From the NCBI RefSeq assembly GCF_964204645.1, contig NC_134026.1:27546650-27610649 (forward strand): DNA of 64,000 nucleotides, given 5' to 3'. Shown here one piece after another: positions 20,421-32,294 of the stretch (position 1 is the stretch's first letter; every line of letters starts with the position of its first letter). The notes beneath the pieces were generated by a model. That model was not told the DNA's origin. It saw nothing but the letters and a program-made list of their open reading frames with translations, and made no database searches. This stretch comes from Tubulanus polymorphus. Lineage: Eukaryota > Nemertea > Palaeonemertea > Tubulaniformes > Tubulanidae. Made by a program: the position numbers and the translations under genes.

Positions 20421-23400
20421 TCATGCAGTCCCATTTTGTAAGCCTCGTAGCTGTTTAAGAACAGTCTCTAATAATCGTTTTCGGTCTTTTTCATTTTTTT
20501 TCAAGTATGTGAATAAATTGTTTTTTCTCTTATCAGCATCTTTTAATCTACAGAAGAATGAAATACCATTAAATTATGAAATGTACATTTGACTGTTGAC
20601 AGCCACAGTGATGAATACTTACTTCTCCAGCAGTGTAATGGCAGTATTTGGATGGACTCGCAGATATTTACTTTTCGCTTGACCGTAATCTGCTAAATAT
20701 GTCGACCAATCCCACGTTATGAATAGATCTAACACCTGTAGATACCACAAGAATGAAGATGAGTATGTGAATTGTTTCGATCTATACCTTAAACTCTAAT
20801 GTTTGTGTTTTGGTTAGTAAGCATTCCATAAAAACTAACCTGTCTTAAATCCATAAATGCCATTTGTAGTGTACCCTCATTGAATCCAGGAACCGGCTCC
20901 GAGCTTGCAAAAACTGAAATAATTACAATGTAATGAGTGGAGAGAACGATTCTGCAGTGCCTTAGATCCAAAGATACCGGTACCACAACATACCTTCACA
21001 TTGCATGAGGTCAAGATTTAGTTGATTAATTGCACCCATAGTTAAACAAGGGACATCACTATCTACAAGAAATTCCATCAAAGCACGGGCGATATGTTGA
21101 CATGACGACATACAAGCAGTTTGTGCCACTTTTTGCTGAAATGAACAAAGCATTGAATGAAATTTCGATTATAGCACAGAAGCTGTAATATAGCCAGTGA
21201 CAATATGCCAAAATAGCTGGCTTTCTTTCTAGCTGCGTACTACATTTGATTAAAATAGATTTCATCTGAAATTCAGTAAATTAAAGATACTAAATGGACT
21301 ACTAAGAGTATATCTAGAATTATCTCAGGGAAGTATTGAATATATGAATATATAACTCATACTAAAGGAAGAATAGCTATTGATCTATAGACCAGGTACA
21401 TGCAGACTGCAGGAAAAAGTTAATGAAACAAAGCATGCAAGTAGTTCTGATCAAAATTTTAGAATTTTCACTTTGAATAAACATATTTTAACCAGCAGAA
21501 TGCACAGAGATTTGAGAGAATGAATAAATCATATGCGTAAGTCATACAGCCAAGAAATAACAATACATGACAAAATGCACTCTGTATGCTTAGAATTTCA
21601 GAGCTGCTGAGTTAAGAAGTTAATATTCCATTTCCAAAAGTGTAAACATTATGCTTCAAAAAACCTTTCAAATTTTAATGTAAACAGATAATCAAACCAG
21701 TCAGGCAACAAATAAGGCTTCATGCGATAGATACGATCAATTGTTTTGTATAGTTTACAATGTAACCGTATATTCAATATCATTCAGTGAATATGCAGCT
21801 TGTGTGACTGTATGAACGATATTTCTCATCACGATTGCAGTACATATGCTATCTCTTTGAAATGCAATTGGCTAGTTTGACGACATGCAGAAAGCAAGTT
21901 TTCAAAGCCTTTGTTATTATACACTGCATATGTATATATAGATAGTTCATTTTAGTTGTGGACAACTCATATATAATGCCAACATTGTATCAAGTCGTTT
22001 GTGAGTGCAATCTGTTTGATTGTGCGTGCAATTTACCAAATATTTCTCTGTGAGCATGCTTATCCCCGGAAAAACATCATACACCTATCAAATGTTAAGT
22101 AAAAATCAACATAAAGTTTCAGTGATTTCTTTTGTCTCCATGTGGGTTGTAACTGAATTACCTTATAATTACCTTTTCCTTTCTAGACATAAGTCTACTA
22201 TATTACTATAACATACTTATAAAACGCTTTTGGAAATCTTGGTTATCCTAATATGAAGTTAATCTTTACATACAAGTTCATTGTGTTTGTGACAATATTC
22301 TGTGTGAACCAAATCTGATAAGCGAGTGATTTAAACGAAACTAATTACAAGAAGAGTGACTTAAAATAACACATATAGAATAAAGTGATTTTTCTATTAA
22401 AAAAAAAAGAACCAATTTACCGATACCGTTACATCACTACAACACATATAAACTTATATTTGTGATAGATCTAGGAAAAAATAAGGAAGAGGTTAAGCGG
22501 AAAAGCAGAATGAAACTTACTGGTAGATTCGTGAAAGACATGAATGTTGATTGTAGAAATGCTAACAAATCTAACATATAACTACTGGCACTTCCTTTAG
22601 CTTCTGACATCATCCAGTCATAAGTGGCTAAAATGTAAACAAATAATCATAATAATTCATAGAAGTTTTAAATATCTAAAGAGAAGCGATCATGAAGAAT
22701 CATGAGAGAGCAATCAGGTCTCACCATCTTCTAAGAATTCATCTATCTTCTTATTAAGTTGAGTATAAATCTGCTCTTCTGCAGCGCTTCTTGCATCTTT
22801 AAACATCGCTGTTCCATGCAATCGACCGACATGGACACTGTCCTTATCAGAACTGTTAGATGATACCAGGTGATCAATATAGAATCACATAAAACTTATT
22901 CTATTGTAAACAATATAAGCCAATGAACATGTTCAACTTACCCTATGATATTAGAAATGAATTCTTCCAAGTAGCCACAACTTTGTTCCAAATAATTCAT
23001 ATTTATGGAAATTTGTATGAGCTGAAAACAAGAACTAATTATTATGAATTTCAGCCACATGGCAAGAAGTACATGTAGCATAAATCTTAATTAGGCCTAT
23101 CAGATTAGAAATAAAAAATGGGACATTTGATACCTGGAGTAAGGTGAGACTAGGTTTTCGTATCAGACACTGCAAACAAGCACTTAGCGTCCGAGTTAGT
23201 AGAATATTGGCCGATTTCCTAACCATATCATCTATTTCCGTTTTACTGAAATGAAAGCATCGAGGATTAAATTTTCAAATAACTTGAATATTGGTATCAA
23301 GACTAGAGTCTGCTTGGTATTCACCTTAGCTGCAGATCCTCAGAAAACTTGAGACATGCGTAGATATACTCCTTCACTTGGATGTAAATTTCTGGCACAA

Positions 23401-26400
23401 AATTAGAAAATGGGAATCTCTTCGGAAAAGGGGCCTGAAAAATTATGCACATTGATTCAAATATATCAATTAGAAATAGTTCTGAGGTAATACTTGAATA
23501 TTTCATATGTATTTCATACTTGATCTAACTGCTCATCATGGAATGGATACATAGCCTTGATTTCTAAATACTTCTCCTCTTTCTCCACACATATTGGTGT
23601 ATAGTTATCTTCGCTGAATATATCATCAAAAACTGTCACCCATTTCTTCATTAGCACCTCATTATACTGATCTCTATCAAAACAACAACCAAAAAGAAAT
23701 AAACAGGATAGTAATAGCTAATCATTACTACTAATATGCTTCAATAGCTTCAATGTACTCACTTCAATTCCAGCAGTAAATCTTGAAGCTGAGTCATTGG
23801 GAATCCATAACTCTGAAATTTATACCGGTAATTCGTGCCAATCTTTCACAGAATTTCAAAGATATCTTCCCCACACGGTCAGTACTTACTTGTAACGTAA
23901 TAGAAAGTAGTAGTAATAGACTTTTCAATTGTAACATCAGCTGTGGATCTGTCACCATCACCTGAAACATTTTGAAAAGTCAGGTACTGTACAGGGAATA
24001 ACAAATCAAATCTAAGTTGGTACATAAACAAGTTAATCTAACCGAATTTGTTCGTAACACAGCTATCAACTTTGTGAGGGCCATCTCCCATAGCTCATCA
24101 ATATATGCTCTATTGACTAGTCCAGATGTTGTATTTAATACATGATCCTCTATCACAAAAAACCTAGGCAAGAACAAATTAAATCAGAATGTTAGTACAA
24201 CGATATCAACCAACAAAGCGGATCATTCTATCTTCACAATATTTACCCTACAATAACATGGAAAAATTTCTTATAGGCATCGATACTTTCATGCTGCAAA
24301 CGAGATGAGATTTAATGTAAAAGAGCATCTGAATACATAACTAACTTTAGAGACAAAAATATGAACATTTCTCTATCATAATTCCTACCATATTCTGTGG
24401 GGGTTGTAAAGCTAATCTAGCTTGCCGAGTTCTCTGTCCGCGGTAATAAAGTTCAAATGTTTCGCGTGCCCCCTGAAAAATATGCCACATCAACAAAATT
24501 ATATGATTCGACCAAGAAGGGCATCCGACTGTTTCAACAAAGTACACCAGATCATTTCTAGTTCCATTTCTTATACTTACCAATACTGAGTATATATGTA
24601 AACACCGATAAACTGGAGCAAAATCAACCACATCTTGAGCACTAACCTCCTACAAAATTACATATCCTTAAGACCTTTAGACACAAATATTACAAGATTT
24701 TCATTTGTAAAGGGATTGACCGTTTTCAAGGATTACAGAAATCAGATTTAAATAATCATTATACCGGGTACACAAGTCAGCCACATACCAGTATATACAG
24801 AGTACAAATGCAAATTACTAATAATATTCGCATTAAATAGGATTTTTAACGTGTGCACAGCCTTACACAGGTTATTTCTCCTACAAAGAATATTTGCTGA
24901 AATGCATATTGCAAAGCTTCTAATTATAAAATCTTCAACTCATTTCATACCCATGACAAACCCGATAAGACAAATCATTGATACATTCAACATTCATCAG
25001 AGAAGAAAAATGAAACGTTGAAAAGGAGCGTATACATATCCAAGAACATTTTGCTATCATAATGTAAATTGACATGAGAAGCTGCTTAGAATTTCGCAGA
25101 TACAGCAACTATACATAATAATCACATACTGCAGAAGCAAATAGCCTAGCAGTGGAGTTATAGGACGACATAATGATGTACTACATTTAAGTTACATACC
25201 TGGATAATACTAGACTTCTGAAGGACACAGAATATATAGAAAATTAAGTAAATCAAATGGAATCATGCATAACTACCAAAAGTCAACATCTTTGAAGATC
25301 ATTCCTTAAAAATTCTTCTAATACCAGTAAGCTACGGTAAAAGTAAATGATCTAGAATTTCTACTCATTTTTATGGTTTAAAAAAAAAACTATTTGAGTC
25401 TACATTCTGGTTAAACATGCAAGCTGAATGACAATTCAGAAATATCTACTCGATCATTACCTCATCATTTTCTGCATCTTTCTGCGCTTGTAACAATGCT
25501 AAGTATTTTGGATCGTCAATTTCACCAGAGAATGGATTAGGTGGAGGTGGGGCTCTTCGCTTTAATATATGTTCTTTAGTCACAGCGATGCTTGGATCAA
25601 AATTATTCTGTTCAGCAGCCTAAGAATAATATCAATAAACACCATCTAACAAGAAATTGACGTGAATGCTTAATGAATAACAATAAATGATAATTTTCTT
25701 ACATGTTTCATGGCAATTTCTCCAATCTTGGACGAGTGTTTACGTATGTTTTCTAGGAAGTCACGCAGATCTGACATTGAAGCCTCTTTGATATCTTCTC
25801 GTAATTTTGGTATTTGTTCCGCCATTATTTGCGCAAACTTGTATTTATGAACCCGAGGTAAATGAGTATGTTCTAATTGTTCTAATGTTTTCAGTGCTGG
25901 ATAGTACCTGGATGATCATGTAATTGAAAATTGATTTGAATGGATGGGGCGACTGGGGTTTCACCCTATATTCAAGTCAAAAGTCTTATTACCTTTTTTG
26001 TTTCATCTGTTCCTTTAATGTTTTATAAGTCTGTAATACTGGCTGACACAAATTCAGACGTTCAATTGCTAATGCTATATTTTTCTGTATCTTACGACAA
26101 TTGATCAGTTCTGCACCTTTTTCTAGTAAAGCTTTACCGGATACCTGAAGTAATTCATTGATACTTCGAATTTCCTCCTGAAAAGGACACATCAATCAAA
26201 TAAATATTTAAACATAAGATTATGGATGACAAATTGCAAAGGGATCTGTTCATGACGCACCTGCAAGCGACCAGCATCTGTTCGCACCTGCAGCAGCTCT
26301 CTAATTGATTCGATAAATCCTTGATAATGATAATTACACATACGTTCGATTTCTTTATCATGATTTTTGATTCGCTGGTCAAGCTTTTCCATAAACTTTG

Positions 26401-27836
26401 TAGGAGGCTCATCACTTTCATATACAGATCTAGAAATACATTTCAAAAATTTTTTCAACTTTAGCTTAAAAAAACTGGAATGAATGCATTTAGCTACCGA
26501 ATTAAGATGTGAACCGTTGTTACTAACAGTTACAATAGACACTATAAATTCATGCATACCAGGACAAAATGCTATCAATCACAATAAAATAGAATAAACA
26601 TTGAATCCAGGTCAGCAGGAAATTGCAAATATATGAGGTCAATGTTGATGTCTTCAAATTCTACAGTTCCTTCTTAACCTACAGCTTATCTTTAAAACAC
26701 CAATACAATTAACCTGATTCTATGATTTTCTCCTTAAATCTTAAACCTAGTTCTGGATATTCTTTTAGTTGATCATTTTAAAGTGAATCTCATCACCATC
26801 AATAACCATTAACCAATAACTTAAACCATTGATACTAATCACCAGTTTCTCCTGAGACAAGAGGGTTAAGATGCCGTATCACTACTAATTGTTGAATTGA
26901 TCATGTTTCTACTAGAAATGGAATTCTGAAAGTACTGGAAATTAATAAGGTTCCTGGTCAAAACATTCACTATCAGCCTAAATTTGCCATCATTTCCAGT
27001 TCTCAGTAGATTCAAATATGTGTCTTAATTTGATCCAAATAGGATAATGACAGCTAAATCCAAGAACTCCGAAGGCCAAGTTAATGTTGATACCAGTCAC
27101 ATATTATTGTCTCTATCATTAGTATCAATGTATTATTTTGCTTAATAAAGACAATAACATTAGACACTAATGGCTTCTGCACTATCTGTGACAGCGCTAC
27201 ACTGACCTTCTCCAGTCTCCATACCTACCTAATAACCACAGCTATACTCCCAGTCTCACCAATTTCTAATTCATGTAACAGATTTTCCTGATCAGCTAAA
27301 CTGTCTGTCGGTCTAGCTTTAATTTTAAATCTATCACAGTACACATCCGCCATATTGAATATGCTACATGCGACTGTTGAAGCTAAAATTAGCCAGGATG
27401 ATATGATTATTTCAGATTCACATCTGGCCTGATTTATATGATCTCTCATTGGCTGGCTGCACCAGACTCATTAAATATGCCAACGAATACAATTTATGGA
27501 GGGGAAAGATGTTCATTTTGAATCCCTCCACACTTTAGATTCAAATCTGTAGAGGTACAGAAAGAAACATTTGTTAGGACCCTGACAGTGACAGATAAGA
27601 GAGTCGAGACTGGGCTTAGAAAGTCGAAAGAGAACCCGGAAGTAAACTTTAAGTGTCCTAAAATACAATATTTACTTCAAAGCAGACGCTAACGATCCAT
27701 CCGTAGCTTCTATTTCATTGATAAGGTGTTCGTTTTTAGCGTTAATCGCCTCTTCTTGTACGAACTCTGTATCTTTGATCGCTGAAAAGACCTTTTTCCA
27801 GCGCGATTCCGATTGTTTTCCTTCGATGGAAGCCAT
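20421..27836 (-). CDS. EXOC6: Exocyst complex component 6 (Sec15)
   Basis: A gene of roughly 20 exons encodes the full Sec15 protein. Landmarks in order are SVYESDEPPTKFMEKLD and NHDKEIERMCNYHYQGF (exon 2, near 26430), KYYPALKTLEQLE-like, MSDLRDFLENIRKHSSKIGE, VVDFAPVYRCLHIYSVLGA, LYYRGQRTRQARLALQPP, FFVIEDHVLNTTSGLVNRAY, YIQVKEYIYACLKFSEDL, LLTRTLSACLQCLIRKPSL and KVAQTACMSSCQHIARALM. The C-terminus is KDADKRKNNLFTYLKKNEKD..QLRGLQNGTA, with TGA at 20421-20423. All match vertebrate EXOC6/6B nearly residue for residue. Sec15 is the exocyst subunit that receives Rab11/Sec4-type GTPases on secretory vesicles at the plasma membrane. Two alternative first coding exons and an 18-nt microexon are described separately. 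Introns of about 1.2 kb (21.3-22.5 kb) and 0.8 kb (24.66-25.47 kb, holding the microexon) contain nothing else I can name. Confidence 0.93.
25200..25217 (-). other. EXOC6: Candidate 18-nt microexon of EXOC6
   Basis: On the minus strand, AAGTCTAGTATTATCCAG lies between a pyrimidine-rich acceptor (TGTGTCCTTCAG) and a consensus donor (GTATGTAA). The exon before it ends AAT GAT GAG and the exon after begins GAG GTT AGT, both in phase 0. Including it therefore adds exactly KSSIIQ without shifting the frame. Its use is inferred from the splice motifs and phase only. Confidence 0.55.
27229..27353 (-). other. EXOC6: Alternative first coding exon (1B) of EXOC6
   Basis: Starting at the ATG at 27353, this exon encodes MADVYCDRFKIKARP and then ENLLHELEIGETGSIAVVI, and ends ATT AG before GTAGGT. 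It leaves the same phase (2 nt) as exon 1A (27676-27836, ending NEHLINEIEATDGSLASAL). Either can splice to exon 2 at about 26430 (SVYESDE). The last 20 residues of 1A and 1B resemble each other, which suggests a duplicated, mutually exclusive first exon. Confidence 0.6.
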
Positions 27837-28480
27837 CTTAGCAAATAGGTCCTTCGCGCATGCGCCCGGGATTTTGGGAGGTGTCAAAAAGTTTTGAAAC
27901 TTCAGAAATTTAAAACTAAGTCCCAATGCGTTTTATGAGTGATTTACCGGCAAGTTAAAATATGAAGATATTTTCTTGAAGAAACTTATGATTACTTGTT
28001 TATCGATTTTATCAAAATCAGCATTGAAGTCATTTTTGGGACAGGGAACCACGAAGGCAAGGTGGCAGCACTTATCGATTGAGACAATTTTCACTTCGCG
28101 GGTTTTCGGCGGACCCGAGAAGGTGCATAGAAAAATTTTAACTAAAAACATCAAATATCACAATCATTTATTGGGCATTATCAATTATCATTATCAATAC
28201 AACCAAAAAAGGGACCAAAAATTCACAGGGGCTCGTATCAGAGATGTAGATTAATGTAAAATGATAATCTGTTAATCCAATGTCTTTAGTATATATAAAA
28301 TAACAAATATGTAACATAATAATAAATATATAAAGTTATTTTATATACATTATAGACATTGGATTAATAGATTATCGTTTTTACATTAATCTACAACTCT
28401 GATATGACGAGCCCCTCTGCAAAAAATGCAGTTCAAGTTCAAGTATTAAAAAGCTTAATTCAGAAGATCAAATACAACAA
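27837..28480. other. EXOC6 promoter side and ALKBH4 3' side
   Basis: Upstream of EXOC6 exon 1A and downstream of ALKBH4. It contains a foldback element (28227-28415). The open frame at 27933-28154 on the minus strand shows no known domain. Nothing else is supportable. Confidence 0.5.
28227..28415. mobile_element. Foldback MITE with about 75-bp inverted arms
   Basis: The left arm begins AGGGGCTCGTATCAGAGATG. The right arm is its near-exact inverse (ending CTCTGATATGACGAGCCCCT). The arms pair over about 75-80 bp with few mismatches around an AT-rich centre of about 35 bp. There is no coding capacity. The structure is that of a miniature inverted-repeat element. Confidence 0.75.
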
Positions 28481-29841: not shown

Positions 29842-32294
29842 ATGTCAGAATCACGCGAGTATATCGTAGTTTCAGCCCCTGGTAAAGTCATATTGCATGG
29901 TGAGCACGCAGTTGTTCATGGAAAGGTGACTTTTTACGCCGAGTAGAATTTGTCTCTTTTAGGTGGCGCCACCGTACGGTTTCAATCCCATTGATTATTT
30001 ACTAGGCCTATGCCTACGTCGTTCTGATCTTGGTTTCCTAAGACTAAACGTATTGTTTGTTCAAATTTAAGCACATTTTGTCACAATTGATAATGAATGA
30101 TGAAAACCAGTGGTGCGATACCAAACCAGTATCAATGACCAACCCCAGTGTCACTGTCAAAAAGAACAATGTTTTTTAGGCCTACACGGCTACAGTGACA
30201 CTGGGGTTGGTCATTGTATTGATACTGGTTTTTATTCATTCACCATCAAGACTAGTCCCTGCGCATATAGGACTTCATATAACCTCACAACCTTCAACAG
30301 CATTGAAATGCTGCCCGCACACACTGCTAAGTAGCCAGCTGGACCAATACTGGCTTAAAGTTGTTTCACCTTATCACACTTATCATTAGATAACTATATG
30401 AATGATAACCAACAGATACAATGATTGCACAAATAGCACAATAGATACATTTTGTTTTTTTTCGCAGATGGCTTTAGCTGGAAGCTTGAACCTCAGAACT
30501 TCAGTGCGTCTGAAGAAATCGGCATCCACTCAATTAACAGCCGTTTTCACCGACATTGGTCGTTTAGGAATATCTTGGCCGATGAATGATGCGTTTATTC
30601 AGCTGTTCAACTCTCATGCAGGTATGTTTAAATGTACCTATTCTTTGAAGGGCTAGAATGCCCAAATGCTGCAATTGTAACCAGTACTTTTTTAATTTTA
30701 GGTGATCCTATGAAGCCTTGTCCACCAACTGATGACGTCTTAAAGAGCCTTTTTCAACTGATGGATATCCCAATGATGTGTAAAGACACGCATGATTTAG
30801 CTGTTATATCATTTCTTTATCTTTATGTGGGAATATTGGGGAAGTTAAGGTATTTTTGATTAGATTGTCACTGAACTAAAGTAGAAAATTAAAGCCTTTT
30901 GATTACCTATAGTTAGTAATTCAGAACAGTTATTGATTTATTGTTTCAGTGATCCTCCTGTATTAGATATCGAAGTTCGTTCCCATTTACCGACTGGCGC
31001 TGGTCTTGGTTCCTCTGCTGCTTATTCCACCTGTTTAGCTGGTGCTTTGTTGTTGTATTGTGGTGCTATTCCACAACGACCTGTTAGCCATGATTACAAT
31101 CAATCTACTGTTCAGTGGACTAAACAAGAATTAAACCTCATCAATTCCTGGTCCTATCAGTCGGAGGTGATACTTCATAAAAAACCTTCTGGGATCGACA
31201 ATTCAACTAGCACATATGGTAATTGAGAATTGGTTAGTCGAATTTGCTCTATTAAAACACAGAATTAAATCGATAAGCCCTTGGTTTAAGTTTCAAATTG
31301 TGTTTTATAGGTGGTTCTTTATCATTCCAGCTGGGAGATATGATGCAGTTGGGCAAGTGAGTGCTACTTTATTGTGTCCATTACACGCTCGTTCATTCGT
31401 TCCTTCGTTCCTTCATGAGAAAATGTTAATATTTAATTATCACATATATTTTTAGCATACCTCAAATAAGGATTCTGTTAACTAACACTGGAGTTGAAAG
31501 AAGTACTAAAGAACTGGTAACAAACGTATTCAAGAGATGTGAAAATGTATGTATTTTATTACCAGAATATTCAATTAGTCGGAGGAATTTTATCTTTATG
31601 TACAGTTGCGTCTAACTTAATATTTGTTTTAGTATGTAACAGTGATGGAGCCAATTTTACAAGCCATTGATGCAATATCACACCGTTGTCAAATTCTTCT
31701 AACTGACTATTCCAAGACGGAATCAAATATCGAAAAAATATACTGCGAATTACAAGTATGTGGACACTAAACAAGTGCATAGAAAACGAAATCCCATAAT
31801 ATGTTGAAGTTGATAAGTACTTTTAATTGTTGGATAGATTTCACTCTCCTATATTTTTTGCGGTTTAGCGAGATGATATGCAGTTAGCCCTTCGGTTAGA
31901 ATTGTCTATTTATTTATAGGAATTGGTCGATATAAATCAACATTTACTGGCATCATTAGGAGTAAGTCATCCGTCTATAGATCAGATTTGTGCAGTTACA
32001 AAGCAGTATAAACTGAGTACTAAACTAACGGGAGCTGGAGGTGGAGGTTGCACATTAACATTGATTCCACCAGGTTAGTTTATACCAGCCATACTCAGAG
32101 AAGGAATGTATTCAATAAGGTTAAGAATTTCTATGTACTATTTTGTAGAATTTCCAGAGGACAAATTGAAGTGTTTGATTGAACAGATCAAGAAATTAGG
32201 TTGTGATTGTTTTGATACAGTAATTGGAGGCCTAGGAGTTCTACAACATCATCCAGATGATTGGAAATACTTGACTGGTGCTTTGAGTTACTGA
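29842..32294 (+). CDS. MVK: Mevalonate kinase
   Basis: Nine exons (29842-29925, 30468-30621, 30702-30849, 30950-31218, 31311-31356, 31456-31546, 31633-31755, 31920-32073, 32149-32294) give 404 residues, against 396 in human. It is a GHMP kinase that phosphorylates mevalonate to 5-phosphomevalonate in isoprenoid and sterol precursor synthesis. The N-terminal motif is [20 protein letters not shown], with the lysine equivalent to human K13. The ATP-binding loop is [14 protein letters not shown] (about 142-155). The catalytic Asp region is [14 protein letters not shown], and the third GHMP motif is [16 protein letters not shown] chose the ATG at 29842 because it gives the family N-terminus; an earlier ATG at 29831 runs into TAA. 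Intron 1 carries a perfect-stem hairpin element. Confidence 0.95.
30123..30232. mobile_element. Hairpin element in MVK intron 1
   Basis: A 35-bp arm at 30123-30157 (AAACCAGTATCAATGACCAA...) is repeated inverted at 30192-30232. There is no mismatch apart from a 4-nt insertion (TATT), and the loop is 34 nt. The near-perfect stem suggests a young foldback or MITE-derived structure, or a strong RNA hairpin in the intron. Confidence 0.7.

Follow-up and report, generated by a model that had tools for sequence, protein, structure and literature searches.

We asked whether six codons (KSSIIQ) that lie within a long intron of an exocyst gene form a real microexon or a chance pairing of splice-like sites. 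The window, the whole stretch of 64,000 nucleotides that was analysed, corresponds to 27.55-27.61 Mb of contig C2 in a 268-Mb animal genome, and the gene in question encodes EXOC6/Sec15, the exocyst subunit that joins Rab GTPases to vesicle tethering. The gene model was assembled by hand:

20421..27836, minus strand: EXOC6/Sec15 gene, 21-exon coding span (hand-built model, Pfam, phmmer)

The gene is complete, running from an ATG at 27836 to a stop at 20421, with GT..AG at every intron and a single open frame throughout, and its protein is 828 aa long with the 18-nt exon and 822 aa without it. The preliminary description had named the gene EXOC6, an identification borne out by matches to Pfam EXOC6_Sec15_N at residues 69-238 (E 1.9e-58), to Sec15_C at residues 438-787 (E 2.6e-107) and, in phmmer searches, to the Drosophila Sec15 structure 2a2f (E 3.9e-93); the yeast Sec15 structures 5yfp/6vkl also matched the gene product (E 2.8e-11). 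Since a Sec15_C search across the genome returned no match outside this locus, EXOC6/Sec15 appears to be present as a single copy. No EXOC6 relatives were found in the other genome-contig and viral-contig collections searched, and an Rfam search of the window returned no structured RNA match. Just upstream of the gene, at window positions 28220-28420, is a 200-bp near-palindromic element whose inverted arms measure 47 and 29 nt; it has 93 genome-wide matches, both orientations counted, and is a member of a MITE-like repeat family.

Introns of EXOC6 are 75-112 nt long in 17 of 20 cases, the long ones being introns 1 (1246 nt), 5 (811 nt) and 17 (1385 nt). The candidate lies in the second of these:

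25461..25619, minus strand: EXOC6 exon 5, ending KDAENDE, phase 0 (gene model)
24650..25460, minus strand: host intron (intron 5), 811 nt, single-copy (gene model, genome copy check)
25200..25217, minus strand: candidate 18-nt microexon, AAGTCTAGTATTATCCAG, encoding KSSIIQ (sequence, splice-site scores)
24581..24649, minus strand: EXOC6 exon 6, starting EVSAQDVVDF, phase 0 (gene model)

The host intron thus divides into 243 nt, the 18-nt candidate and 550 nt. On the minus strand, positions 25217-25200 read in context as TGTGTCCTTCAG followed by AAGTCTAGTATTATCCAG and GTATGT (at greater length, ctgtgtccttcag followed by AAGTCTAGTATTATCCAG and gtatgtaa), with TTCAG directly before the 18-mer and GTATGT directly after it. 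The six-codon stretch had been described correctly to the letter, as had its setting in an intron of about 800 nt with phase-0 flanks. At 18 nt between plausible AG and GT sites, the candidate falls within the 3-27 nt that define an internal microexon, and, with phase 0 on both sides and no stop codon, it preserves the frame. The exon 5-exon 6 junction is itself in phase 0 and the frame stays open in both isoforms, the skipped form reading AQKDAENDE/EVSAQDVVDF and the included form AQKDAENDE-KSSIIQ-EVSAQDVVDF. The insertion point, which is preceded by the stretch RRAPPPPNPFSGEIDD, lies in the polar linker that joins EXOC6_Sec15_N to Sec15_C, where an insert of KSSIIQ is unlikely to break the fold.

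Splice-site strength was assessed with weight matrices built from EXOC6 introns only (20-21 introns, a small training set). The donor, CAG/GTATGT, scored 10.3-10.4 bits and outranked every one of the 20 EXOC6 donors. The acceptor scored 8.0 bits, close to the median (55th percentile of EXOC6 acceptors), which makes "good acceptor" a fair description. We infer from these scores that both sites would be functional. Within the host intron, the 18-nt candidate exceeds all other exon candidates by 3 bits, and the runner-up carries stops. Longer exons using the same donor, with acceptors at 25331, 25304 and 25272, have lower scores and internal stops. An exon derived from a repeat or transposon was ruled out by the single-copy status of intron 5, and a poison exon by the candidate having neither a stop nor a frame shift. 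When cassette exons were sought in introns 1 and 17, nothing comparable was found; intron 1 contains a 228-nt open candidate (window 27456-27229, minus strand) in frame with exon 1, which scores only 13.1 bits and is probably due to chance.

The chief alternative is that the 18 nt are a chance decoy, a pseudo-exon whose sites look strong but are never used in splicing. To gauge how often such decoys arise, site pairs 3-27 nt apart, with both scores at least equal to the candidate's own, were counted on both strands of the window and of 18 randomly drawn 10-kb segments of this genome. Random genomic DNA yielded one in-frame pair as strong per 360 kb of strand, so that 0.002 in-frame decoys are expected per 811 nt of real genomic DNA; a second-order Markov null gave 0.0035 in-frame, stop-free matches. 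Across both strands of the window, one other microexon-sized pair reached the candidate's thresholds, at 30603 on the plus strand. This pair (window 30603-30621, 19 nt, CTGTTCAACTCTCATGCAG) has two equally strong sites and a length that is not a multiple of three.

Rare as such decoys are, the splice-site scores cannot settle the matter, given how uncommon genuine microexons are as well. With an assumed prior of 0.0005-0.005 real microexons per intron, the posterior for a real exon from the splice-site evidence alone is about 0.02-0.2, and on that evidence a real exon is less likely than a decoy. Over the roughly 30 kb of intron sequence in a window, about 0.1 such match would be expected. Against a decoy stand the candidate's position in one of the gene's three long introns, its 3-bit lead within that intron, and the branch-site match and two TGCATG sites that accompany it; this remaining evidence was weighted by judgement rather than measured. 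A decoy accordingly keeps a substantial share of the probability, at appreciably below an even chance.

The branch-site match lies between the nearer TGCATG and the acceptor:

25243..25248, minus strand: CTTAAT, probable match to a branch site, beginning at -31 in the AG-free zone

The AG-free zone before the candidate acceptor spans 53 nt, which is ordinary for this gene, in which the zones of constitutive introns extend up to 54-66 nt. Because other EXOC6 introns look similar, the putative branch site shows that the acceptor looks competent, not that it is special. Nor is intron length specific, as introns 1 and 17 are also long and show no obvious microexon. Even so, both junctions and phases fit, and the strongest donor of the gene, a long non-repeat intron, the branch-site match and two TGCATG motifs support a cassette microexon. 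Taken together, these features make it probable, by a modest degree of confidence, that the 18 nt are a real cassette microexon of EXOC6/Sec15, a reading somewhat more likely than a decoy; the in-frame microexon proposed in the preliminary description is the best account of this sequence.

How might such an exon be regulated? Two matches to the RBFOX site are found upstream of it:

25416..25421, minus strand: TGCATG (RBFOX site), starting 204 nt before the microexon
25264..25269, minus strand: TGCATG (RBFOX site), starting 52 nt before the microexon

UGCAUG is thus enriched in the flanking intron on the upstream side, and no TGCATG occurs in the 550 nt downstream of the candidate. At the genome rate of 0.186 TGCATG per kb of strand, the probability of two in the 243 upstream nt is about 0.001 (0.0006 empirically), although these P values are flattering in that the motif was chosen after the sequence had been inspected. 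Alone among 180 permuted hexamers, TGCATG is present twice in this stretch. EXOC6 introns overall contain 6 TGCATG where 0.92 would be expected (P 0.0004), and because of this general excess the pair upstream of the microexon may have another role. Three of these motifs, two of them only 35 nt apart, are found in the 1385-nt intron 17 (window 22520-21136, minus strand), which despite them holds no good cassette exon candidate.

An RBFOX gene is present on another contig (C4), where we identified an exon reading PKRLHVSNIPFRFREADLRNLL and an RRM exon containing GFGFVTF. Two TGCATG motifs precede the acceptor of the RRM exon (C4 24071511-24071639, minus strand), at -36 and -9, and in mammals RBFOX proteins induce skipping of the corresponding exon (PMC3126832). 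This arrangement suggests that the autoregulation by RRM-exon skipping known in mammals exists here too, and, with TGCATG upstream of both exons, it forms a same-genome parallel to the EXOC6 candidate. RBFOX, MBNL and QKI cause skipping when bound in the upstream intron and inclusion when bound in the downstream intron (PMC12064062). Given this position rule and the upstream-only location of the motifs, the arrangement would, if anything, predict repression of the candidate in RBFOX-rich cells, the reverse of what the preliminary description had proposed. That the candidate is under RBFOX control at all is a tentative proposal, which we consider doubtful.

The proposal that it reverses was neural-specific inclusion, which in its most concrete form would depend on the eMIC domain encoded by an SRRM234-type gene. 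As a sub-case of a real exon, this reading draws support from an eMIC encoded on the same contig as EXOC6, about 235 kb past the end of the window, by two collinear exons:

C2 27844731-27844603, minus strand: first eMIC-encoding exon (PF15230)
C2 27842358-27842320, minus strand: second eMIC-encoding exon (PF15230)

These match positions 9-55 and 55-67 of PF15230. Singly, the SRRM_C/eMIC matches are weak (E 0.028 and 0.2) and below the Pfam cut-off because an intron divides the domain. Joined, the exons read SRSPSIRRRIGSPSHLDKRRIT followed by SARKRPIPYYRPSPPTSPSSSSHSPS, with SPSHLDKRRIT/SARKRPIPYYRPSPPTSPSSSS at the junction, and as read from this conceptual join they clearly encode the eMIC of SRRM-type microexon regulators. 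The eMIC domain is of bilaterian origin (PMC8797185), and since one is encoded here, the animal is most likely a bilaterian, one that could run a neural microexon programme. As to its phylum, searches for COX1, GFP and mollusc haemocyanin returned no match, those for GFP and haemocyanin being run with no positive control.

Whether the EXOC6 candidate would belong to such a programme is a separate matter. In flies, exons that depend on eMIC combine weak splice sites with a long AG-free zone, tracts rich in UCUC and a UGC near the 3' splice site, although the weak 5' site is not common to mammals (PMC8797185). The 53-nt AG-free zone of the candidate fits this pattern but falls within the range of the gene's constitutive introns. 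No UGC lies within 50 nt of the candidate acceptor, the nearest being inside the TGCATG at -52; upstream, TGC occurs only at -204 and -52, both times within TGCATG, and no UCUC (TCTC) is found in the host intron upstream of the candidate. So while the eMIC domain is encoded, the UGC/UCUC signature is absent, and the strong donor contrasts with the weak splice sites of the fly exons (PMC8797185). With TGCATG upstream rather than downstream as well, the neural-inclusion idea is weak and its eMIC-driven version unlikely; RBFOX-linked skipping is the better guess. Another sub-case, a constitutive microexon present in all transcripts, would suit the strong donor and median acceptor, human constitutive micro-exons having stronger splice sites, but these also have shorter flanking introns (PMC4317164), compared with 243 and 550 nt here in a gene whose introns are mostly 75-112 nt, and skipping leaves frame and linker intact, so this reading is very improbable.

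If the 18 nt are a cassette microexon, they would be included in some cells and left out in others. Inclusion would give KDAENDE-KSSIIQ-EVSAQDVV and skipping KDAENDE/EVSAQDVV, such that inclusion would lengthen the polar linker that separates the N-terminal Sec15 domain from the C-terminal one, with the frame unchanged. RBFOX acting at the two upstream UGCAUG sites could repress the exon, in which case RBFOX-rich cells (neurons, muscle) would leave it out and other cells would splice it in; we hold this account to be possible but not probable. The full scenario, an RBFOX-repressed EXOC6/Sec15 microexon that is out in neurons and muscle and in elsewhere, with a linker tuned by tissue, is rather unlikely as a whole, and would invert the pattern usual for neural microexons.

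Several known systems bear comparison with the candidate. Human EXOC1 has a 24-nt microexon that is listed in vastDB but not in GENCODE and whose translation is confirmed by junction peptides in neurons (PMC12724457). Like it, the candidate is a short exon of 3n length in an exocyst subunit, but subunit and lineage differ, and the EXOC6 exon is a genomic prediction where that of EXOC1 is supported by RNA and peptides. Exon 7 of human EXOC7 is switched by PTBP1 with consequences for function, and the resulting isoforms differ in phosphorylation and location (PMC6048363). There too an exocyst subunit is alternatively spliced, as the candidate would be here, although the subunit and exon are different and PTBP1 control is a property of EXOC7 (PMC6048363). 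Because of these EXOC1 and EXOC7 precedents, exocyst microexons are already a known kind; in the open-access literature searched, no report of an EXOC6/Sec15 microexon was found.

With human brain micro-exons, in which the RBFOX motif TGCATG is enriched downstream, the candidate shares a very short length and TGCATG in a flanking intron, but its sites are both upstream, unlike the downstream sites associated with inclusion (PMC4317164). It likewise shares with the eMIC-dependent neural microexons of bilaterians its length class and the presence of an eMIC-encoding gene, and differs from them in its strong donor and in having no UGC/UCUC signature at the 3' splice site (PMC8797185).

Even if the reading is true, the general understanding of microexons would be unchanged. 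If the exon is spliced, however, it would give an unannotated EXOC6 isoform in an animal in which eMIC and RBFOX genes have both been identified, it would mean that exocyst microexons are not limited to human EXOC1, and it would provide a case in which RBFOX sites predict exclusion rather than inclusion.
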